Below the pieces are notes generated by a model. The model was not told the origin of the DNA, ran no database searches, and saw only the letters and a program-made list of their open reading frames with translations. Positions 7,230-29,921 of a stretch of DNA of 35,285 bases are shown here, in pieces. Source of the DNA: Lentisphaerota bacterium (GTDB taxonomy: Bacteria; Verrucomicrobiota; Kiritimatiellia; UBA8416; JAUUYL01). Position 1 is the first letter of the stretch, and every line of letters starts with the position of its first letter. The DNA is taken from NCBI GenBank assembly GCA_030590485.1, contig JAUUYL010000023.1, positions 1 through 35,285 of the forward strand. The letters run 5' to 3'. The translations under genes were made by a program, and so were the position numbers.

Positions 7230-10200
7230 TTAGTTTATCTGTTGCAATTTCTTCCTGATCATCTGTGGTGGGGGTGCTATGCTGTCCAGATCTACGGGTA
7301 GCTCTTTCATAAGCTCAAGTGCTTTCTGCGAATCGGCCAGTTTTGTCTCAAGTAATGTCATCTGCTTCCGGGCTTCGTCGAGGAGCTTGCCTTTTTCTTG
7401 AATCTGATCAAGTAATTCAATGTTCTTCTTCCTTGTGGAAATAACTTCTGATACAGGAAGCTTATTGATTGAACATTTCTCGGCATTGTTTTTGTTGACG
7501 GTTTTGGAGTCCGGCATGATGACACCGTCGTTAATCAAGTGATTAAGTGCGGACAAGTTGAGAGGGCCAAACGAATCACCATTTGTCAATTCAACATTCC
7601 ACTCCATAAATAGCTTTGGCACATCTTTAGCTGCAACCCACTTCTTCTTGTCGTCGGATATAAGGTGATCAGGACCAATTCGACATTGAGCAGCCCAGTT
7701 GTACATCTCTGTTATAGAGACAGGCCCGAAAACAGAATTGTTCTCGAGTTTGAGATACCACGAGTCAGTAGCATTGGCGTCTTCAAGCTCATTTATGCGC
7801 GCCATGAATTTGCTTTCTTTGTCCTTGCTCTTGCCGAGCTCGGTTTTGACGTAAGCTTTTTGTTTCGCGAGTTCTTTTTGAGCGTTCTCAAGGAGGTCAG
7901 TGGAGCTGGCATTATCCGCTTCGAGTTTCTTCAAACGGTCCGCAAGCGCAGGATCGGTCTTGCTGCCAGAGGTCTTAACAGGTGAATCTTTGCCGGAGAC
8001 AGGAAGGGGTTGAGCTTGTTTCCTGAGATCGGCCAGCTTCTGTTCCAGCTGTTTCTTTGCCACTGCGCTTGCAGACTGCAATTTCCTGTTGTCGGCGGCC
8101 CGCAAGTTGAGCTGTTCGACCCGCTTGTCGTTTTCGGCTTTGAGTTTGTTGTGCTTGGTATCGAGAGCCTTGAGTCGATCTAGGCTGGACTTGTTATTCG
8201 TCTGGAGCTCCTTATAGTCTGCTTCGAGTGTATTCAGCTGTTTCTGGCTCGCGGCATATTCATTGCTGAGCTTCTGGTGCTCATTCTTTTGTTTTGCAAG
8301 ACGTTTTTCTTTCTCGGCAGCCGAGGTGCTCTCTGTTTTCGACAATGTCTTAAGTTCTACGTCTTTCTGTTTTAGAATGTCCTCAAGATCTTTGCGCTGT
8401 TTAGTCTGCTGACTGATTTGTTTCCGACTGCTAACCATAGACTTGTTTGCAGAATTAATCTCTCGCTGAAGTGTCGACATCTCTTTTCGAAGATCTGCGG
8501 CTTTCTTGTTGCCCTCGAGCCGTATATCTGCCTGCTTCTTTTTCTCCTGCTCAATGAGCGCTTGCGCCTTTTTAAGTGCTTTAACAGCTGATTGCGCCTG
8601 TTTATCAAGCTTGGAAAGGCGCTGTTCAAGGTTCTTCTCGTTGGAGGCCGATACTTCAGTATTCTTTTGAAGTGTTGTAAGGCGGCACTCAAATTTCTTT
8701 AATTCAGTGTTGCTCCGCTTCTTCAGCTTGACGAACTCCGTCTTCTGTTCGGCTAGTTCGCTTCTGGCTGTCTCAAGTTCTCGATCGGACTTGTCGGCAA
8801 TTTGCTGAAGCTTGTTGATACGGGTGCTCAGCTTCTTGTCGACAAGCGTTTCTCTGCATACCACTTCGGCTCGAAGCTGTATTTCCTGCTCAAGGTTTCC
8901 TTTGAGCATTCTCAGCTCTTCTGAGGCTGCTGAATATGTAAGCTCAGCATCTTCAATCTGTTGAGCGAACTCAAGACTCTGTTTCTTGGCTTTCTTTTCG
9001 AGGCGCGAAATATGGTCCTTCTGTTTTTTAAGGTCTTGCCTGCTGTGGATGAGGTCATCTTCCGAAGCAAGTGTCTGCTCTTCCAGTTCAGCAACGTATT
9101 GTTTTAACTCGCTCTCGGACGACAAAGTCATGTCAGCTTGCTTTTGGAGTGCGTCCACCCGGTGCTGAAGCTGTTCCGATACCGTTTCGCTGTTTCGCTT
9201 GAAGTCTTGATGTTCTTCTTCCAGATTCTCAATGGTGAGCTGTTTGGCTGCGCTTGACTCCTCAAGTTCGTGACGCCTGGATTTCTCCTGCTTCAGTTGT
9301 TTCTGAACAGTCTTATGCGTCTTGGTTAGTTCTTCTCGTTCGGCTTTGTGTTTTTGGAGTGCGCTTTCTGTGCGGGCCAGTGCTTCGCACGATGTGTCCA
9401 AAGCTTTTTCCAGTTCGGTTATTCTAGCCTCAAGGTTTTTGTGTAGCAGTGAGGTGGACTTGTGGAGCGCTTTGTTGTCAGAGTTCTGCCGGTCGAGTTC
9501 TTCTTCAAGTCGGCTGATTGTGGTTGCGGCAGACGCAGATGTTTTTTCTGTCTGCTTAATGTGCTTCTGGAGCCGGATTTGGTTCTGTTGCCCGGATGTC
9601 TTGAGCTCTTTGCAAATCTTTTTCTGTTTCTTGAGCTCTTTTCGAGCCTTCTCTAACGCGGTGTCTGATGTTTTGGTCTGCTTTAATAGCTTCTCTATGC
9701 TGACACTGAGTTCTTTTTCGCGTTTGGCGTTGGAACTCTTTGTGCGGATGTGCTCGGTCTTTTCGGATTTAAGGTGTTTTTTAAAATTATCGGTTTGCGA
9801 TACAATGTCACTGACTTGCTGTTCGCGGCGCTTGATGTTGACAATAAGCTTTTTCTCTTTGGATGTGTACGCGTCGTGGAGCACCTGATATTGGGCTTTT
9901 TCCTCTTCAAGTTTCCCCCTGGCAGTTTCAAGCTGTTCTTTTGATTCAGCTGAGTTCTGCTGTAGCGTTTTGATTTGATTGAGAAGCTTGTTTTCGGTTT
10001 TCTTCTCACGGATTTCAGTCTTTGCCCGCTGCTGTTTTTCTTTTTCCAGTTCCTGTTTGAGCCCTTGAAGTGTTTCGGATGCTGAGGATGAGTCTTTCTC
10101 GGCGTTTTTAATGCGTTCTTGAAGGGTAGCTTCGCTTTTGGCTGCAGCGGATTCTAGTTTGCTGAATTCATTCTGCTGAGTCTCAAGTGCGGCCCGGGCT

Positions 10201-11828
10201 TCAGTCAGAGTCGAGGATGAGCCGTCTGCTTGTTTTTTCAATTCCGTAAGCCGTTTTTTCAGTTCGTTTTCCTTTCGAATCGCTTCGTCGGAAATAGTCT
10301 GTCTGTGTAGTTGCTTTGATTGTTCAGCCTCAATAAGTTGCCTGGAGAGCTCTTTGATCTGCTTTTCGAACTCAGCTTTCTGTTGAGCCAGCTCGGATTG
10401 CTTGGTCTGCAGGAGTTCGGCTTTAGCTGCATCGAGGTCTTTGACTGATATGTCGGCCTGTTTTTTAAGCTCGGTGATCTGAGTCTGAAGCTGTTGTTCT
10501 TTTGCTGAACCGGCCTGCTTGACTTGTTCGTGACCGGATTGCTGGTTCTTCAGTTCTTCCCTGGCGCTGTTAAGTTGCTCTGTGCTGTCGCTCAGGTTCG
10601 TCTTCAGGGTTTTGATGTGTTTTTGTAGTTGTTGATCGGCATTAGTTTTGTCGGATTCGAGTTTAAGTCGGGCGGTTGTTTCGCCAGCCAGTTTTTCTTT
10701 AAGTTTGTTTAACTCTGCGGCGAGGGAAGAAGTCTTTTTGTCTGAATCCTGTATGCGTTGAGCAAATTCAGTTTCCTTTTCCTTGATTTGCTTATCAAGA
10801 TCGATATGTATCTGCTTTTGTTTCGTGAGATCCTGTTTAGCGCTGTTTAGCGTCAGAATTGCTTCATCGGCCTGTTTCTGGAGTTCGCTGGCCTGCTTCT
10901 GAAGTTGGCCTTGTTTTTCGTTGCTGGCAGTAATAGCTGCTTCAGCACTTTCCTTTTGTTCTTCGAGTGCCTGTTTGACAGTTCCTAATTGTTTAGTGGA
11001 TGTGTCGAGAGAGCTTTGCAGTTCACTTACGCGTTTGCGAAGTTCAGCATCGGTGTTAGAGTCTTTGGCCGCAATGTCAGCTTGTCGTTTCTTCTCGTGC
11101 GCGAGCACTTTGGTGAGGTCGTCAATCTTGTTTGATTGCGTGGGTCCTGATTTCTCAAGCTCCTGTACTTTCTTGAAAAGATCGCGCGTCTTTATGTGGC
11201 TTTGTTCTTTTAGCTCGAGATATTTGGTCTTCTGTTGTTCGAGCTGCTCGGAGAGATTGTTTAGTGCCTGTGTTTTTTCCTGGAGTTCTTCTGATAGTTG
11301 TGAGGTAAGCTTTGTCAGCTCTTCTTTTTCGTCCGTTGGTTTTCTGGGTCCCTGTTCTATCGGCGTAATCTCTGCCAGTTCGCCCAGTGCTTGCTTTGCG
11401 GGTTGCTGGGTGACTGGAGCCGAAGGTGTGGCGGGAGTAGCTTTTTGTGCAGGGCCTTTGCTGTGTCCTTTCAGAATGTCCTGAAGAAGCATTTCCTTTT
11501 CCGTAATTATGTTGTTAAGTACGGCGTGAGGTTCGATTTTCCCTCGGCTGATCAGTTGTGGTGCGGCGAGAATATTGAAAGGCCCGTATTTCTCTCCGTT
11601 CTTGAGTTTGACCACCCATTCCATTTTGAGTTCGCCGAAAGATTCTGCGGGCATCCAGTTTGTGTTGTCGTGGGATACAAGATTGCCCTCGGCAATACGG
11701 CCTTCTTCAGCCCAAGCTCTCAGTGTAGACATTGAGATGGGTCCGTAAATCATGTCGTCTGATATTTTGAGATACCATTTCTCTGGATCAGACTCTGTGG
11801 CTTTAAAAGTCTCGTGTAATCGTGACAT
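7230..11828 (-). CDS. Giant coiled-coil protein with paired GYF_2 domains at both ends
   Basis: The 1532-residue protein begins with two tandem GYF_2 (DUF4339-like) modules, residues 18-62 (WYLKISDDMIYGPIS ... NWMPA) and about 70-105 (MEWVVKLKNGEKYGPFN). After a Pro/Ala linker there are about 1150 residues of nearly uninterrupted heptad-type coiled coil rich in Lys, Glu, Gln and Leu. A second tandem GYF_2 pair follows at about 1357-1402 and 1408-1445, then a short coiled coil and a Pro-containing tail. GYF_2 modules are thought to mediate protein interaction. There is no signal peptide or membrane span, so it is probably a cytoplasmic rod, over 100 nm long if fully extended (inference). Start ATG 11828 lies seven bases after GGGATGA. 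It is transcribed alone. Confidence 0.88.
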   Translation of the reverse strand: MSRLHETFKATESDPEKWYLKISDDMIYGPISMSTLRAWAEEGRIAEGNLVSHDNTNWMPAESFGELKMEWVVKLKNGEKYGPFNILAAPQLISRGKIEPHAVLNNIITEKEMLLQDILKGHSKGPAQKATPATPSAPVTQQPAKQALGELAEITPIEQGPRKPTDEKEELTKLTSQLSEELQEKTQALNNLSEQLEQQKTKYLELKEQSHIKTRDLFKKVQELEKSGPTQSNKIDDLTKVLAHEKKRQADIAAKDSNTDAELRKRVSELQSSLDTSTKQLGTVKQALEEQKESAEAAITASNEKQGQLQKQASELQKQADEAILTLNSAKQDLTKQKQIHIDLDKQIKEKETEFAQRIQDSDKKTSSLAAELNKLKEKLAGETTARLKLESDKTNADQQLQKHIKTLKTNLSDSTEQLNSAREELKNQQSGHEQVKQAGSAKEQQLQTQITELKKQADISVKDLDAAKAELLQTKQSELAQQKAEFEKQIKELSRQLIEAEQSKQLHRQTISDEAIRKENELKKRLTELKKQADGSSSTLTEARAALETQQNEFSKLESAAAKSEATLQERIKNAEKDSSSASETLQGLKQELEKEKQQRAKTEIREKKTENKLLNQIKTLQQNSAESKEQLETARGKLEEEKAQYQVLHDAYTSKEKKLIVNIKRREQQVSDIVSQTDNFKKHLKSEKTEHIRTKSSNAKREKELSVSIEKLLKQTKTSDTALEKARKELKKQKKICKELKTSGQQNQIRLQKHIKQTEKTSASAATTISRLEEELDRQNSDNKALHKSTSLLHKNLEARITELEKALDTSCEALARTESALQKHKAEREELTKTHKTVQKQLKQEKSRRHELEESSAAKQLTIENLEEEHQDFKRNSETVSEQLQHRVDALQKQADMTLSSESELKQYVAELEEQTLASEDDLIHSRQDLKKQKDHISRLEKKAKKQSLEFAQQIEDAELTYSAASEELRMLKGNLEQEIQLRAEVVCRETLVDKKLSTRINKLQQIADKSDRELETARSELAEQKTEFVKLKKRSNTELKKFECRLTTLQKNTEVSASNEKNLEQRLSKLDKQAQSAVKALKKAQALIEQEKKKQADIRLEGNKKAADLRKEMSTLQREINSANKSMVSSRKQISQQTKQRKDLEDILKQKDVELKTLSKTESTSAAEKEKRLAKQKNEHQKLSNEYAASQKQLNTLEADYKELQTNNKSSLDRLKALDTKHNKLKAENDKRVEQLNLRAADNRKLQSASAVAKKQLEQKLADLRKQAQPLPVSGKDSPVKTSGSKTDPALADRLKKLEADNASSTDLLENAQKELAKQKAYVKTELGKSKDKESKFMARINELEDANATDSWYLKLENNSVFGPVSITEMYNWAAQCRIGPDHLISDDKKKWVAAKDVPKLFMEWNVELTNGDSFGPLNLSALNHLINDGVIMPDSKTVNKNNAEKCSINKLPVSEVISTRKKNIELLDQIQEKGKLLDEARKQMTLLETKLADSQKALELMKELPVDLDSIAPPPQMIRKKLQQIN

Positions 11829-25082: not shown

Positions 25083-25880
25083 ATGACAAAGAAACAAAGA
25101 ACGTCAAATAAGAAGCCCGGCCCTCCGGTCGGTCTCTTTTTCCTCATATTTCTGGTCGGAGGCGCAATTGCCGCCCTGCATTTTACCGGCAAGCTCAAGC
25201 CGATTCTCGATTCCATTGGCAAGAAAAAGCCGATTCCTGTGCAACAGCCAGTTGTCACCAAGCCTGCTCCGGTTGTTACCAAACCTGCTCCGGTTGTTAC
25301 CAAACCTGCGCCTGTCAAGAAACCTGTGGCCAAAGTCGTTGAAAAGTCCGTGGAAAAGAAACCCGAGCCGGTCAAAAAAGTGTCCAAAGAAGACGCTGTG
25401 GCAGAAGTATACCGTAAGCGGTTTAAGGCACCGAGAGTAGGGCACCCCGTTACGGTCACATTGAAAGGCAACGTTAAGAAAACCGGCACATTACTCAGCA
25501 TGGACGAAGAATCGTTACGGATGAAAATCGGCAAGATCGAAATGACACTTTCCAGAAACCAACTCGCGCCGGTCGGTCTTGCGCGTTGCTACGAAGACGA
25601 ATACGTAAAATACATGGTCGCAAAATATCAGCGCCGTGAAAAGGCTCTGGCGTATCAAAAAGCACAAAGCAAGAAACTCAATGATGCGTACGCAAAATTC
25701 ATGGCGTCACGCGGCAAAAAACTCAATGCCAGCCCCAAGCCCGGCGCAAAACAATCGATTGAAGATGTTGATTTCAAAAAATGGATGGAAGAAAACGGCC
25801 AGACCGATCTGCTGAAAGCCCGCCAGGAACGCGTAGCGGCATACGAAGCAGAACGCAAAAAAGCCGGCCGCGCCCACTAA
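25083..25880 (+). CDS. Membrane-anchored basic protein with PVVTKPA repeats
   Basis: I do not recognise this 265-residue protein. A basic N-terminus precedes a single membrane span (about residues 17-35), then three near-identical PVVTKPA units (about 56-77), a Lys/Glu/Pro linker, a small beta-type region (about 117-160) with GHPVTVTLKGN and KKTGTLLSMDEESLRMKIG, and a long helical C-terminus ending in basic residues. The beta segment resembles an SH3/Sm-like fold in rhythm. No Shine-Dalgarno is clear before ATG 25083, so it may be read through from the cysteine-rich lipoprotein gene 15 bases away. Confidence 0.72.
   Translation: MTKKQRTSNKKPGPPVGLFFLIFLVGGAIAALHFTGKLKPILDSIGKKKPIPVQQPVVTKPAPVVTKPAPVVTKPAPVKKPVAKVVEKSVEKKPEPVKKVSKEDAVAEVYRKRFKAPRVGHPVTVTLKGNVKKTGTLLSMDEESLRMKIGKIEMTLSRNQLAPVGLARCYEDEYVKYMVAKYQRREKALAYQKAQSKKLNDAYAKFMASRGKKLNASPKPGAKQSIEDVDFKKWMEENGQTDLLKARQERVAAYEAERKKAGRAH
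25248..25310 (+). repeat. 21-bp coding tandem repeat, three units
   Basis: Three 21-base units (25248-25268, 25269-25289, 25290-25310) encode PVVTKPA each. Units two and three differ only at the last base; unit one has three synonymous changes. This indicates recent duplication. Confidence 0.85.
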
Positions 25881-25883
25881 GCT

Positions 25884-26013
25884 CGTTGTTCGTCGTTCGC
25901 CCTCCCGTAGCCCAGCCCCACTGTCCTATCATAAGTGTCCCATAGGCCTCCTATCGGTTCCATCAGTCCTGTCGCATGTCCTGTTGGTCCTATGGGGTCC
26001 TATAGGCCCTGGG
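25884..26013. repeat. Repeat array C, heptamer block then TCCTAT-core array
   Basis: Positions 25884-25905 contain period-7 units (GTTGTTC, GTCGTTC, GCCCTCC). From 25921 onwards there are many TCCTAT/TCCCAT/TCCTGT cores spaced at 8-12 bases, ending in two close copies at 25988 and 25998. It fills the space between the membrane-anchored protein and the hairpin upstream of the sigma-like gene. Confidence 0.7.
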
Positions 26014-26014
26014 C

Positions 26015-26047
26015 ACTTCCGTGTAAGGTTTATCCTTACACGGAAGT
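26015..26047. promoter_or_regulatory. Perfect 14-bp inverted repeat with 5-base loop
   Basis: ACTTCCGTGTAAGG (26015-26028) and CCTTACACGGAAGT (26034-26047) are perfect complements around a TTTAT loop. It lies 76 bases upstream of the sigma-like gene. No T-tract follows on either strand, so it is unlikely to be a simple intrinsic terminator. It could be an RNA structure in the leader or a DNA site for a dimeric protein. Confidence 0.8.
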
Positions 26048-26088
26048 CAGGGAAACCCCTACAAAAAAAATCAGGGTGTTACCCTACA
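26047..26088 (+). promoter_or_regulatory. Two direct repeats, each with an internal palindrome
   Basis: TCAGGGAAACCCCTACA (26047-26063) and TCAGGGTGTTACCCTACA (26071-26088) are 24 bases apart, separated by seven A. Each has a GGG...CCC small inverted repeat. They lie between the 14-bp inverted repeat and ATG 26124, so they may be operators or leader hairpins. Confidence 0.5.
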
Positions 26089-26123
26089 GACAAGCCACAC
26101 AGTCTTGTTGTAATCTACTGCGC

Positions 26124-26978
26124 ATGAAGTCACCTCTGACAACTGTAACTGCATGGATCGAATGGAAGAAACTCTGCGCATTGGATCTGTGCTCTCAGGA
26201 AACTGTGTCTGCCTTGCGATCATTTACAAAACTTCGTTTTGAAAGATTGCTTAACCGTTATTACCACGAAACCTCACAGGCACCTGACAATCCCTGGCAT
26301 CTGTTTGAGACGCATATGACCGTCACTCAGACCCGGCAGGGTAAATGCTATAAAGACTGGCTCTTTGCCCGACTGGAACATTCCTCGGATTCGGATATCA
26401 ATGTGCTGGAGGGTGGGGCATCCCTGATCATGCGCGATGTTGTCAGAGAATATCTTCGACAGGAATGCACAAGACCTAAGACGATTTCTCTTGATAAAAC
26501 ACTGAACAATGAATTCTCTGCCTGCACGCTACTGGATTTGCTCGCCGCGGAACAGGATACTATTGATGCAGTATGTCTTTTGGAATACGAGAACCGGGCC
26601 GCCAGCCATGTAGAGAAACTCATGCCGAATCTAACAGAGCGCGAAAGTATCGCGCTGCTGGCCAAATATATGGGCATTTCCCTGGTACACCCTCGTGTAC
26701 TGAAAGTTGCCGGATGCAAACCAACCGCCTTCACTCAGACATATCTTAAATTTGTGCAGAAAGTGGCCCGGCAAATCCGGATTAAATATGCAGGAGAAGA
26801 CACACAATCCATGCTGACGTTGGCATTGATGGTATTAAGGCAAATAAAAAGTCTGAATTTCGAACAGAAAAAAGCGAAGCAACCGCGTATAATTCTCTTT
26901 ATGTTTCAAGACAAAGAAGGGATGAAAGACCTCAATAGCCATGAAATTACCGAAACTGAACTTGAAGCCTGCATCTGA
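26124..26978 (+). CDS. Unknown helical protein, possibly sigma-factor-like
   Basis: I do not firmly recognise this 284-residue protein. It is largely helical. Residues 77-114 (KDWLFARLEHS ... RDVVREYLRQE) and 169-220 (LTERESIALLAKYMGISL, then a second helix around FTQTYLKFVQKVARQI) read like a distant sigma-70 region-2-like and region-4-like arrangement, with a helix-turn-helix in the second. This is a weak impression. ATG 26124 is chosen because upstream sequence is repeats and hairpins; no Shine-Dalgarno is seen. It overlaps the next gene by 38 bases, and ssb follows, suggesting a shared DNA- or RNA-polymerase-related task. Confidence 0.6.
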   Translation: MKSPLTTVTAWIEWKKLCALDLCSQETVSALRSFTKLRFERLLNRYYHETSQAPDNPWHLFETHMTVTQTRQGKCYKDWLFARLEHSSDSDINVLEGGASLIMRDVVREYLRQECTRPKTISLDKTLNNEFSACTLLDLLAAEQDTIDAVCLLEYENRAASHVEKLMPNLTERESIALLAKYMGISLVHPRVLKVAGCKPTAFTQTYLKFVQKVARQIRIKYAGEDTQSMLTLALMVLRQIKSLNFEQKKAKQPRIILFMFQDKEGMKDLNSHEITETELEACI

Positions 26979-27627
26979 TCAGCAGAAACATCGTCTTGCC
27001 AGATGGCTGGAAGAGTGGGAGCTCTTTCGCCACATCGACGAAGGCGCGCGCAATATAGAAGCAGATATACCTTTCCCCAGCGGCAAGAGATCTATAGTCG
27101 GCTCCGGCAAAAACAGTGAAGTGATTGCTGGGCAAATAAGACTATTCTTTCCCGGGCTACTGCCAGGAACATCCAGACCATTGTACTTTGCTGTTCTTGA
27201 TGTTGACGAGCGTGGGTCATGCCTTCTTGCTCCATTCGGTCGTTTTGCGGAACCATGCCTGCCTGATGAATATCTGACAGGTCGGAAAGTTTCCTGTTTG
27301 CGCGTACTCTGTTTCTGGAATCGGCTATATTTACCTGTCAATATCGTTGGCAACAGCTGGTTTGCCGACATGTTGTCACCTGCAGAAAGATGGAGCATCT
27401 TATCTGTGCTGGAACATATTACCGCCGGCTTTCCTTTAGCGAAACATCTTGCGTCCCTGCTCGGCCCGCCATGTTGGCATCCTGCCGACCCGCGCAGGGA
27501 CTATATTGCAGAAGAATCTGACCTTATCCAGACACTTCAACGCTTCTCTCAAAGGGAAACTATACAATATCCCGAACATAAGCCCTCACAACGCAAAGCA
27601 GCCGAAGACCACGATGAGTATGAATAA
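26941..27627 (+). CDS. Unknown protein coupled to the sigma-like gene
   Basis: I do not recognise this 228-residue protein. The N-terminal third is helical (HRLARWLEEWELFRHID), the middle looks like beta structure (GQIRLFFPGLLPG, PLYFAVLDVDERGSCLLAPFGRFAEPCLP, CLRVLCFWNRLYLP split by loops), and the C-terminus is charged. There is no membrane span or signal peptide. It starts 38 bases inside the end of the sigma-like gene on the same strand in another frame, so they are co-translated. A role as a regulator or partner of that protein is possible but not shown. Confidence 0.65.
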   Translation: MKLPKLNLKPASDQQKHRLARWLEEWELFRHIDEGARNIEADIPFPSGKRSIVGSGKNSEVIAGQIRLFFPGLLPGTSRPLYFAVLDVDERGSCLLAPFGRFAEPCLPDEYLTGRKVSCLRVLCFWNRLYLPVNIVGNSWFADMLSPAERWSILSVLEHITAGFPLAKHLASLLGPPCWHPADPRRDYIAEESDLIQTLQRFSQRETIQYPEHKPSQRKAAEDHDEYE

Positions 27628-27629
27628 TT

Positions 27630-27682
27630 CCATGTCCCATATGCCCTGTCAGTCCTACGGGGGCTTATTACTCCCGGGCCCG
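27630..27682. repeat. TCCTAT-core repeat array D
   Basis: Variants TCCCAT, TCCTAC and similar cores occur between the unknown gene and ssb, followed by ACTCCCGGGC that also occurs beside array A (within the msrBA end). Degeneracy is higher than in arrays A and C. Confidence 0.5.
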
Positions 27683-27899
27683 CTCCCAAAACTTTTTTCA
27701 CTTTTTCGCGAACTAAACACCGTTCGTTTCCTTTATGTATACGGACACATGAATGTCCAGAAAGGAAGGTAGCATGCAAAACGAGCAGAATAAGGGCGGT
27801 GCTCAGGTGCTTTTTGAAAAGGCATCCGAGGACCTGAACGAAAAACTGACAGCATGTAGAGATAAAAACGCAGGGTACAAGAAAGAAGGAAAGAAAATC

Positions 27900-28292
27900 A
27901 TGAGTAACTTCAACAGAGTAGTACTAATGGGCAGGTTAACACGTGACCCCGAAGTCAAAGAAATCGCACCAGGCCGATCGGTTGCCGATATGGGATTGGC
28001 TGTTACGGAGAAATACAAGGACAAGACTGGTGAGTTCGTGGAGAAAACCTGTTTTGTCGATATTGTCGCCTGGGGCAGGCAGGCGGAAACATGTGGTGAA
28101 TACCTGAAGAAGGGTTCGCCTGTGCTGGTAGAGGGGCGTTTACAGCTGGACCAGTGGACGAACAAGGAAGGGCAGAAGCGCAGCAAGCACTGCGTCAAGG
28201 CTGACCGCGTACAGTTCCTGAACGGCAAGCCGAAGGAAAACGCGGAAAATCCGGAACCCGGTACAGCAGAAGCCGAAGCATTGCCGTTCTAG
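27900..28292 (+). CDS. ssb: Single-stranded DNA-binding protein
   Basis: From ATG 27900 the product is 130 residues and starts in the usual way, NFNRVVLMGRLTRDPEVK, then GDx-like AVTEKYKD, VDIVAWGRQAETCGEYLKKG and VEGRLQLDQW, ending in an acidic tail with terminal LPF. It binds ssDNA as an OB-fold oligomer in replication, recombination and repair. The frame is open upstream: ATG 27774, with AAGGAAGG five bases before it, would add a 42-residue basic/acidic helical extension. Canonical SSB supports 27900, but the extended form has the better Shine-Dalgarno and is possible. The short length suggests an accessory rather than the only SSB. Confidence 0.9.
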   Translation: MSNFNRVVLMGRLTRDPEVKEIAPGRSVADMGLAVTEKYKDKTGEFVEKTCFVDIVAWGRQAETCGEYLKKGSPVLVEGRLQLDQWTNKEGQKRSKHCVKADRVQFLNGKPKENAENPEPGTAEAEALPF

Positions 28293-28407
28293 GGGAGGGG
28301 AATAGGACGCATAGGCCCGTCCGCCAGAGTGCTTGCATCCCGAACTTGTTTCGGGGCTCGTAGAGCGGCGGCGGGACCTATGGGTTCCAACAGCAAAGGA
28401 GAAGACT
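28293..28407. repeat. Repeat array E and a hairpin upstream of the four-helix-bundle remnant
   Basis: Cores of the opposite orientation (GGACGCATAGG, GGACCTATGGG) occur at 28306-28317 and 28374-28384. CCCGAA (28339-28344) and TTCGGG (28350-28355) form a hairpin with a 5-base loop. The region lies between ssb and the pseudogene and holds no other gene that I can support. Confidence 0.5.
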
Positions 28408-28574
28408 ATGCAAGCAACAGAACAACTTTTGGCTTCGCACGGTGGATTCAGAAACTTGCAGTCGTGTAGGGCTACAGAGATCACCAGCAGGCCCAGCAGG
28501 TACGTAACTTGGCCTGGGAAAAGAATAAGACCTGTGCGACCTACAGGACCTATGCCTCGTTCTACAAACCGTAG
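28408..28574 (+). pseudogene. Decayed four-helix-bundle-suffix-domain gene
   Basis: An intact start (GGAG before ATG 28408) leads into about 25 residues, with ASHGGFRNLQSCRATEI, which match from memory the N-terminus of the 'four helix bundle suffix domain' family. The family core (with its QMVQAARSG-type motif) is missing. After a frame change near 28480, another frame reads QQAQQVRNLAWEKNK, then TCATYRTYASFY and a stop at 28572-28574, which resembles the tail region of such proteins. This implies an internal deletion with frameshift. The in-frame continuation from the start gives only 66 residues of unlikely sequence. Function was unknown even in intact members; they are related to small bundle proteins. 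Confidence 0.6.
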
Positions 28575-28598
28575 TCTGTGGTCTGTAGTCCGCAGTCG
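28571..28598. repeat. Heptanucleotide array, four units of GTAGTCT type
   Basis: GTAGTCT, GTGGTCT, GTAGTCC and GCAGTCG are contiguous 7-base units at the end of the pseudogene and just before the convergent MATE gene. It is a third type of period-7 array in this window. Confidence 0.75.
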
Positions 28599-28604
28599 GA
28601 TCAC

Positions 28605-29921
28605 CTAGATCCCAATCCCTTCCCATTTCCGTCGACGCCACATTACGGCATAAACAATTCCGCCTATGGCTTTGTATGTCAATTGTGCGATCCAGATACC
28701 GGTGAGACCCATGCCTAATATTGGCCCGGCTATGTATGCTAGAGGAACGTACAATCCCCATTGAAGTAGAATAGACGTGAACATGACGCGTGTATTATCG
28801 CCGGCGCCCAGCAAAGCTTTGGAGCAAACGATCATAACAGCTTCAACACCTAAAATAAAACCGGTCATCTGCAATGGTAATTTCCCGACCGCTAATACCG
28901 CTGAATTTTCTGTAAAAAATACCAGAAGTCTTTCCGGGATAAACATCATTGGCAGGCCAATCAGCACAAGTATTGATATGGCAATCCCCATGACTTCCCA
29001 GCCCCATCGTTCGGCATCGTCCGGATCTTTTCTGCCCAACGCCTGGCTCACAAGAGATGTTGCGCTTAGGCCCATGCCTATACCTGGTAATATTCCAACA
29101 AGAAGAAGCATGGATATTATCTGTGAAGCCGCCAGCTCCATTGTCCCCACAAGCCCGATAATAAATATCACGGCAAGCAGGCCGCCCGCATAGCAAATGT
29201 GCTGTACTGCAACAGGTATTGTCAGCTTGATGATAGCCCTGTACATTTTCCTGTCGGGGTTTCTCTGCAAGAATCCGTTAGGTCTGGCAGTGATCAAGCC
29301 CATGACGAAATACATTATTGTTCCACAGAACATCGATATCGTAGAAGCTATACCGGCGCCAAGGGTTCCATACACCGGCGAGCCCAGATGCCCGAATATA
29401 AATACCCAGTTAAAAAAGATGTTCAGCACATTCATGGCAATCAATATGCACATATAATACTTTGATCGATTTGTCCCGTTCCAGAAACCGGCAAAAGAGA
29501 AGTTTATACCCATTGCAATAATTGCAATCAGACGCGACTGTAGATAGGGTCCTCCTAAACGAACTACTTCAGCATCATGATTGATATAAGGGAAGATATA
29601 AGGTGTCAGGATAAACAGCAGTGCGGCAATAGGTATGCCGGCAACAAGAGACAAGACAAGCCCGCCGTTCAATGGTATCGCCGTAATCTCAGGTTTACCT
29701 TCACCCAGCCGCCTTGCCGCCATCGACTGAACCGCTGTCGAGAAGCCTATAACATAGGCGCCAGCCAGGAAACTACACAGTCCGCCAACGCCGACAGCCG
29801 CTATAGCTGTTGGACCCAGCCGCCCGACCATTGCAATATCAACCAGATTCAGGACGTTCTGCGACATCATTCCTGCCATAATCGGCAAAGACAACACCAT
29901 GATTTTCTTCAATCGTTCCAT
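28605..29921 (-). CDS. MATE family efflux transporter
   Basis: The 438-residue protein has twelve probable membrane spans and MATE signatures: LSLPIMAGMMSQNVLNLVDIAMVGRLG near the N-terminus (here split: LSLPIMAGMMSQ, then NVLNLVDIAMVGRLG), GFSTAVQSMAARRLGEG, and the second half with IPGIGMGLSATSLVSQALG. This family exports drugs or metabolites using a Na+ or H+ gradient across the inner membrane; the substrate cannot be predicted. ATG 29921 is the best start because residues before it look unlike coding sequence, but no Shine-Dalgarno is clear. It converges on the pseudogene at its 3' end. Confidence 0.92.
   Translation of the reverse strand: MERLKKIMVLSLPIMAGMMSQNVLNLVDIAMVGRLGPTAIAAVGVGGLCSFLAGAYVIGFSTAVQSMAARRLGEGKPEITAIPLNGGLVLSLVAGIPIAALLFILTPYIFPYINHDAEVVRLGGPYLQSRLIAIIAMGINFSFAGFWNGTNRSKYYMCILIAMNVLNIFFNWVFIFGHLGSPVYGTLGAGIASTISMFCGTIMYFVMGLITARPNGFLQRNPDRKMYRAIIKLTIPVAVQHICYAGGLLAVIFIIGLVGTMELAASQIISMLLLVGILPGIGMGLSATSLVSQALGRKDPDDAERWGWEVMGIAISILVLIGLPMMFIPERLLVFFTENSAVLAVGKLPLQMTGFILGVEAVMIVCSKALLGAGDNTRVMFTSILLQWGLYVPLAYIAGPILGMGLTGIWIAQLTYKAIGGIVYAVMWRRRKWEGIGI

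Follow-up and report, generated by a model that had tools for sequence, protein, structure and literature searches.

The locus studied here lies in a window of 35,285 nucleotides, the whole stretch of DNA analysed, from a Lentisphaerota bacterium, and it raises the question of what two overlapping genes of no named family are doing directly before a gene for a single-stranded DNA-binding protein (SSB). ORF1 and ORF2 share 38 bases, with ssb after them on the same strand, an arrangement given in the initial annotation with which our coordinates agree (Table 1). It is proposed, with a probability of about one half, that the three genes form a conserved chromosomal regulatory module in which ORF1 is a sigma-like driver of the accessory SSB (SSB2) and ORF2 is a partner exerting feedback. 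The proposal is drawn from computed evidence, namely the conserved gene pair, its co-occurrence with SSB2, the similarity of ORF1 to sigma factors, the predicted fold of ORF2 and a conserved promoter-like element. Literature searches found no paper on the ORF1-ORF2-SSB2 module.

Table 1. Features of the module, with positions in the window.
Feature	Position	Strand	Basis
Perfect 14-bp inverted repeat, ORF1 leader (ACTTCCGTGTAAGG/CCTTACACGGAAGT)	26015-26028/26034-26047	+	sequence search
Two short palindromes, ORF1 leader	AGGGAAACCCCT 26049-26060; AGGGTGTTACCCT 26073-26085	+	read from sequence
ORF1, putative divergent ECF-type sigma-like protein, 284 aa	26124-26978	+	profile match, Foldseek
Candidate ORF2 promoter-like element, within ORF1 3' end	26874-26903	+	exact GCGAA-N18-CTTTATG
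ORF2, predicted MazF/PemK-fold protein, 228 aa	26941-27627	+	AlphaFold2, Foldseek, hhalign
SSB2 promoter-like element: T-tract, GCGAA (-35-like), N18, CTTTATG (-10-like)	27692-27737	+	PWM 26.0
SSB2, accessory single-stranded DNA-binding protein, probably 172 aa	27774-28292	+	Pfam SSB E 1.9e-34; conserved domain from 27903

The gene pair and its second SSB

Searches of Pfam, NCBIfam, PHROGs, PADLOC and PDB sequences returned no family for ORF1 or ORF2, in line with the earlier remark that the first two proteins match none. The pair was found in 17 of the 31 genomes of the order and 75 of the 346 of the class, and more weakly in other families of the phylum; the gene group containing it is present in 16 families of the class, so that the gene order is not peculiar to this genome, nor did either protein turn out to belong to a known, unrelated family. 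As a rule there is one copy per genome, and ORF1 and ORF2 adjoin on one strand at 64 of 67 loci. Clustering of neighbours across loci revealed nothing conserved beyond ORF1, ORF2, ssb and a Whirly-like gene, the remaining large clusters being antisense frames of module genes or confined to a few families.

This genome has its housekeeping ssb elsewhere, in an rpsF-ssb-rplI-dnaB arrangement (G000:C126). SSB2 proteins form a single clade across families, and the window ssb falls within it, apart from the housekeeping SSB; judged from its sequence it is a member of an ancient second SSB clade and not the housekeeping copy, as had been supposed. Within the order, every one of the 17 genomes that have the pair carries two or more ssb genes, as against 1 of the 14 that lack it (Fisher p 7e-8). 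Where at least 3 kb of flank is available on each side, ssb is linked to the pair at only 19 of 36 loci. SSB2 has an OB-fold SSB domain (Pfam) and ends in ...AEAEALPF, an acidic -PF tip. Its described length of only 130 residues was counted from an internal ATG at 27903; the frame opens at the ATG at 27774, which is preceded by a good Shine-Dalgarno sequence and is favoured because the distance from the promoter-like element to the start codon in relatives, about 20-55 nt, fits it. The protein is thus probably 172 residues long.

In many relatives the SSB2 gene is followed by a gene for a Whirly-like ssDNA-binding protein, which was sought in this genome and found to be absent. Of its 19 members, 12 matched Pfam Whirly (PF08536), the best at E 2.5e-5, and the closest PDB match of the bacterial protein is potato Why2 (E 0.08). 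A distant Whirly is also encoded on one 154-kb viral contig.

Profile and structure comparisons of ORF1 and ORF2

The initial annotation had called ORF1 possibly sigma-like, and profile comparison bears this out. A class-wide ORF1 profile aligned with an ECF sigma profile over 131 columns, from sigma2.3 to sigma4 (hhalign, prob 93.5, E 2.2e-7), control comparisons being negative, and the class-wide HMM retrieved a bona fide ECF sigma factor (E 5e-7). No Pfam sigma model matched ORF1. Its structure model (pLDDT 83, pTM 0.49) gave SigH as the top Foldseek match, with a probability of 0.95 but an E of 0.11; several further sigma chains were matched with low probability. Profile similarity thus places ORF1 among the ECF-type sigma-like proteins, as a divergent member.

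For ORF2 it is the predicted structure that is informative. All 50 matches listed for its AlphaFold2 model (pLDDT 80) in a Foldseek search of the PDB were MazF/Kid/PemK toxins (prob 0.91-1.00, best E 0.003), and its profile aligned with that of PemK (hhalign, E 6e-4); in the model, therefore, ORF2 adopts the MazF/PemK fold. At the MazF catalytic column Arg occurs in only 34 of 67 ORF2 relatives, and the position of the catalytic Thr is Gly or Ser in 65 of 67, whereas true PemK relatives from the same lineages keep RP in 29 of 30. RNase activity has probably been lost. ORF2 relatives also share a conserved C-terminal tail, GPPxxHPxDPRxxY...AAE.

The promoter-like element and other upstream sequences

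A conserved element with the consensus T-tract-CCGGAAA-N13-TTTCTTTA, resembling an ECF promoter, stands before SSB2 in most families; GGAA-N16-CTTTA precedes that gene at 37 of 44 loci, in 19 of 21 families. GGAA is typical of the -35 boxes of ECF sigma factors. The window has variants of it: exact GCGAA-N18-CTTTATG occurs only twice, before ssb (27708-27737) and before ORF2, neither of which had been noted in the earlier reading. The site before ssb is the only strong match in the 663 kb scanned, about a quarter of the genome, and no other convincing target emerged there; a scan of 386 kb of a relative (G057) gave one unclear further site. The ORF2 site, 37 nt upstream of the ATG, scores low with the class PWM, which was trained only on sites upstream of SSB2. 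That same matrix detects the element before ORF2 in 6 families, at 14 of 67 loci. Two genomes have it ahead of an unlinked Whirly gene, and family f26 has it ahead of ORF1 (scores of 37.7 in L056/L069 and 21.9 in L061), ORF1 being mostly without one.

Most of the elements upstream of ORF2 also encode SEKxxARFF, a peptide conserved in ORF1, and some of the signal may therefore be due to conservation of the peptide. An encoded peptide alone is insufficient as an explanation: in L036 the element falls beyond the bounds of ORF1, and L102 and L095 have it in a different reading frame. In some genomes no more than about 15 nt separate the -10-like box from the ORF2 ATG, and such very short leaders fit a promoter rather than an RNA leader.

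Both the inverted repeat and the two palindromic repeats described earlier are present in the ORF1 leader. Perfect 14-bp repeats with a short spacer occur elsewhere in the genome at about 0.5 per 35 kb (9 in 628 kb), and the one in the leader is thus unusual but not unique; it was considered as a conserved operator and rejected, as the leaders of ORF1 in the 16 orthologues examined showed no conservation of it. One genus of relatives has a 36-bp palindrome about 190 bp upstream of ssb. Together, the palindrome and the inverted repeats indicate that other regulators probably act at the module. TCCTAT-type words, which had been taken to bound it, number five at 25939-26000 before ORF1 and recur at 28377, with none at 27628-27690. 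The window holds 12, where 5.6 would be expected and the rest of the genome has 7.1 per 35 kb, so we regard them as common intergenic words and not as boundaries. The 66-aa frame from 28402, supposed to be a decayed four-helix-bundle gene, matched nothing in NCBIfam and was not confirmed as such.

Proposed role, alternatives and known systems

In the proposed module ORF1 would direct RNA polymerase to a dedicated promoter with a GGAA-type -35 box, a CTTTA-type -10 box and an upstream T-tract. Its targets would be the SSB2 gene, together with the Whirly-like gene behind it in many relatives, and ORF2. ORF2 would act as ORF1's partner, most likely in the role of anti-sigma factor or co-regulator, and its synthesis, driven by ORF1 itself, would feed back on ORF1. 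What speaks for an anti-sigma role is the adjacency of the two genes, at 64 of 67 loci, and the shared element. The output would be extra ssDNA-binding protein in some ssDNA-rich state, for example DNA uptake or repair. That ORF1 reads the element and that ORF2 binds ORF1, as well as the nature of the trigger, we infer as most likely. Several observations count against the proposal: the overlap of most ORF2 elements with a conserved peptide, the low score of the ORF2 site in the window, the lack of a Pfam sigma match and the Foldseek E of ORF1, the linkage of ssb at no more than 19 of 36 loci, and the usual lack of the element before ORF1.

The element could instead be the operator of some transcription factor or an autoregulatory site of SSB2, with the housekeeping sigma factor transcribing the genes and ORF1 a degenerate sigma-fold regulator acting otherwise. 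We consider this unlikely, though the strongest competitor: the absence of Pfam sigma domains from ORF1, the palindrome before ssb in one genus and the inverted repeats in the window speak for it, but an operator accounts poorly for two boxes at fixed spacing below a T-tract, for the short leaders of about 10-60 nt, and for the lack of the element before the Whirly genes of six genomes that are without the pair and its ORF1. That ORF2 is a MazF-like RNase toxin and ORF1 its antitoxin is improbable. The fold matches are indeed to toxins and overlapping genes are common in such pairs, yet the catalytic residues are poorly kept, a single copy per genome with deep conservation is unlike such modules, and ORF1 resembles sigma factors and not antitoxins. 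Least credible is a nucleic-acid-handling unit that is mobile or of phage origin; the initial annotation had suspected something similar in an "accessory or mobile unit". Plasmids and phages commonly carry accessory SSBs, and the distribution in the class is patchy; against this, SSB2 is monophyletic across families, the pair is single-copy, no neighbours are conserved beyond the module and the flanking words are genome-wide. A plasmid search with ORF2 and a phage search with ORF1 gave no match, and searches of viral contigs found no relative of either. The accessory part of that suggestion stands, given the separate SSB2 clade, and the mobile part is not supported.

Returning to the proposed sigma-driven module, the element shared by group members points to a small switch in the handling of ssDNA that has not been described before. 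A fuller version, which we advance tentatively and at less than even odds, is that in PVC bacteria of the Kiritimatiellia/Lentisphaeria part a new ECF-like sigma family, itself under the control of a catalytically dead MazF-fold anti-sigma factor, turns on a dedicated ssDNA-protection regulon of SSB2 and bacterial Whirly, probably in natural transformation or replication stress. The proposal gives a concrete, testable role to two protein families that are widespread but unnamed in PVC bacteria, most of them uncultured, suggests that a MazF toxin fold was recruited as the regulatory partner of a sigma factor, and would bring bacterial relatives of Whirly and a second SSB together in one small regulon.

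The nearest known parallel is an ECF (group IV) sigma factor with its anti-sigma factor, which the module resembles in the sigma2-to-sigma4 profile similarity of ORF1, in the GGAA-type -35 box and in an adjoining partner gene that in several families is preceded by the same element. It differs in that ORF1 is too divergent for the Pfam sigma models, the partner has a predicted MazF fold and no known anti-sigma domain, and the putative targets are ssDNA-binding proteins. With the MazF/PemK (Kid) endoribonuclease toxins ORF2 shares the predicted beta-barrel and weak profile similarity, but the catalytic Arg and Thr are not conserved, an extra N-terminal helix accompanies the conserved C-terminal tail, and ORF2 has no antitoxin and is linked to a sigma-like gene. 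SSB2 recalls SsbB of Streptococcus, a second SSB under the competence sigma factor ComX, in that it too would apparently answer to an alternative sigma-like factor; here the sigma family is another one, and no competence genes were found near the module. Whirly proteins have been described as plant-specific (PMC9070903), whereas the proteins encoded after ssb in relatives, which match the same Pfam family, are bacterial.

The ORF1-ORF2 gene pair

The window corresponds to contig C100 in an assembly of 2.6 Mb and 134 contigs. Both ORFs, their 38-base overlap and the ssb gene downstream were re-checked on the window sequence and match the description in the initial annotation. ORF1 (284 aa) gave no match in sequence searches of Pfam, NCBIfam and PDB. 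A class-wide ORF1 profile aligned to one built from 19 ECF sigma factors of relatives with a probability of 93.5 and an E-value of 2.2e-7, spanning sigma2.3 to sigma4 (RpoD, 2e-4; PemK control, 0.7). The ORF1 profile also retrieves a genuine ECF sigma factor with an E-value of 5e-7. The best PDB match of the ORF1 model in Foldseek is SigH, with a probability of 0.95 but an E-value of 0.11. From these matches ORF1 is predicted to be a divergent sigma-like protein, in agreement with the original proposal.

ORF2 (228 aa) had been listed as unknown; it was indeed unnamed, and a MazF fold is now predicted. Its AlphaFold2 model is a beta barrel (pLDDT 80), all 50 PDB matches listed for this model are MazF/Kid/PemK toxins (probability 0.91-1.00, best E 0.003), and hhalign against PemK gives an E-value of 6e-4 with a negative control. 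The catalytic arginine is kept in about half of the sequences, and Gly or Ser stands in place of the threonine, the columns being set by aligning the RP and PF(G/S) motifs to R25 and T48 of Bacillus subtilis MazF. Conservation is highest at PF, E110, WN and the C-terminal GPPxxHPxDPRxxY and AAE motifs. We infer that ORF2 represents a regulatory, non-nuclease use of the MazF fold.

ORF1 has a single match per genome in 17 of the 31 genomes of the order and, with a profile built from order members, is found in 75/346 genomes of the class, a few by weak or partial matches; other families of the phylum give weak matches, again with ORF2 adjoining. ORF2 lies 3' of ORF1 on the same strand in 64 of the 67 class loci having both genes, and a second ssb is close to the pair in 31 loci (16 families), placed upstream, downstream or divergently. 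That gene order varies while the set remains together argues for a functional link. The only conserved neighbours found around the loci were the module genes and a fourth gene immediately 3' of ssb.

The second SSB and the Whirly-like gene

This genome carries three ssb genes: the window copy, a housekeeping copy on contig C126 within rpsF-ssb-rplI-dnaB, and one on contig C2 adjoining ArdC/RadC-like genes (neighbours identified by eye from their sequences). The window gene falls, together with linked ssb genes from 16 further families, in a clade, SSB2, that leaves the housekeeping genes outside (local support 0.79); its single member labelled housekeeping, at locus L209, is itself an SSB2 preceded by the element described below. 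Within the order, at least two ssb genes occur in 17/17 pair-bearing genomes versus 1/14 without the pair (Fisher p 7e-8, indicative because the genomes are incomplete and related). The accessory SSB first suspected is upheld, though as an ancient, chromosomal gene; the mobile, repeat-bounded unit proposed with it was not borne out. A 43-codon in-frame extension, which has a Shine-Dalgarno sequence of its own, lies 5' of the conserved SSB start; counting it, the window SSB may be 172 aa long. At four loci (L032, L034, L035 and L038) a 36-bp near-perfect palindrome (TGTCATATACATTCACGATCGTGAATGTATATGACA type) lies about 160-200 bp 5' of ssb; it is conserved in four congeneric species, both arms showing changes.

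The fourth gene, encoding a Whirly-like protein, lies 3' of ssb in 22 loci (13 families); of 19 members, 12 hit the Pfam Whirly model, the best with an E-value of 2.5e-5, and a search of this genome found none. Whirly proteins have been described as plant-specific (PMC9070903). Bacterial Whirly-like proteins directly follow the second ssb at locus L081 and in relatives, and occur in 138/346 class genomes; families f42 and f43 have them without the pair, and a 154-kb viral contig (L334, IMGVR_UViG_3300042991_000725) encodes a distant relative (31% identity).

Features located in the window and in related genomes
Feature	Position	Strand	Basis
Coiled-coil protein, 1532 aa, weak SMC similarity	7230-11828	-	
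ORF1	26124-26978	+	
Exact GCGAA-N18-CTTTATG, before ORF2	26874-26903	+	word search of window
ORF2	26941-27627	+	
Exact GCGAA-N18-CTTTATG, before ssb	27708-27737	+	word search of window
ssb (SSB2)	27774-28292	+	
5' extension of ssb	27774-27902	+	
Whirly-like gene after second ssb	L081:8611-9201		
Element, score 24.6, genome G030	L148:2466	+	
Element, score 25.8, genome G057	L284:2979	-	

A promoter-like element before SSB2

An element of ~45 nt recurs upstream of SSB2, consisting of a T-tract, CCGGAAA, N13 and TTTCTTTA. A seed, derived from the same sequences as those scored, reaches a score of at least 11 in 34/44 SSB2 loci versus about 1 in shuffles. When SSB2 leaders were used to train a weight matrix, a score of at least 17 was reached by 37 of 44 SSB2 leaders (19/21 families), 14/67 ORF2 leaders, 1/71 ORF1 leaders and 2/35 Whirly leaders, both of the latter from Whirly genes unlinked from ssb; in six pair-less genomes the Whirly genes score at most 2.6. 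A score of 17 is reached by 1.7% of random windows, an overestimate because real sites occur in many of the sampled loci.

The elements before ORF2 often fall within the 3' end of ORF1, in a stretch that encodes the conserved peptide SEKxxARFF, so that they could be read as encoded peptide only. This does not account for L036, where the element lies outside ORF1, or for L102 and L095, where it is in a different reading frame; the DNA itself is therefore kept. GCGAA-N18-CTTTATG has exactly two occurrences in the window, and its chance estimate is optimistic since the word was picked after both sites had been seen. No further convincing site was found in 663 kb (about a quarter) of this genome. 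In other genomes, strong copies precede an ORF whose start resembles a REP-associated (Y1) transposase (L148) and a short ORF of unknown kind (L284).

Proposed regulatory logic

We propose that ORF1 would read the element and that ORF2 would inhibit ORF1. DNA uptake is one candidate trigger of the module, because competence offers known cases of a second SSB controlled by an alternative sigma factor, for example SsbB in Streptococcus. ECF sigma factors recognize GGAA-type -35 boxes and often switch on their cognate anti-sigma gene; the module resembles this logic in its sigma-like gene, its adjoining partner and a common element before the partner and ssDNA-binding genes.
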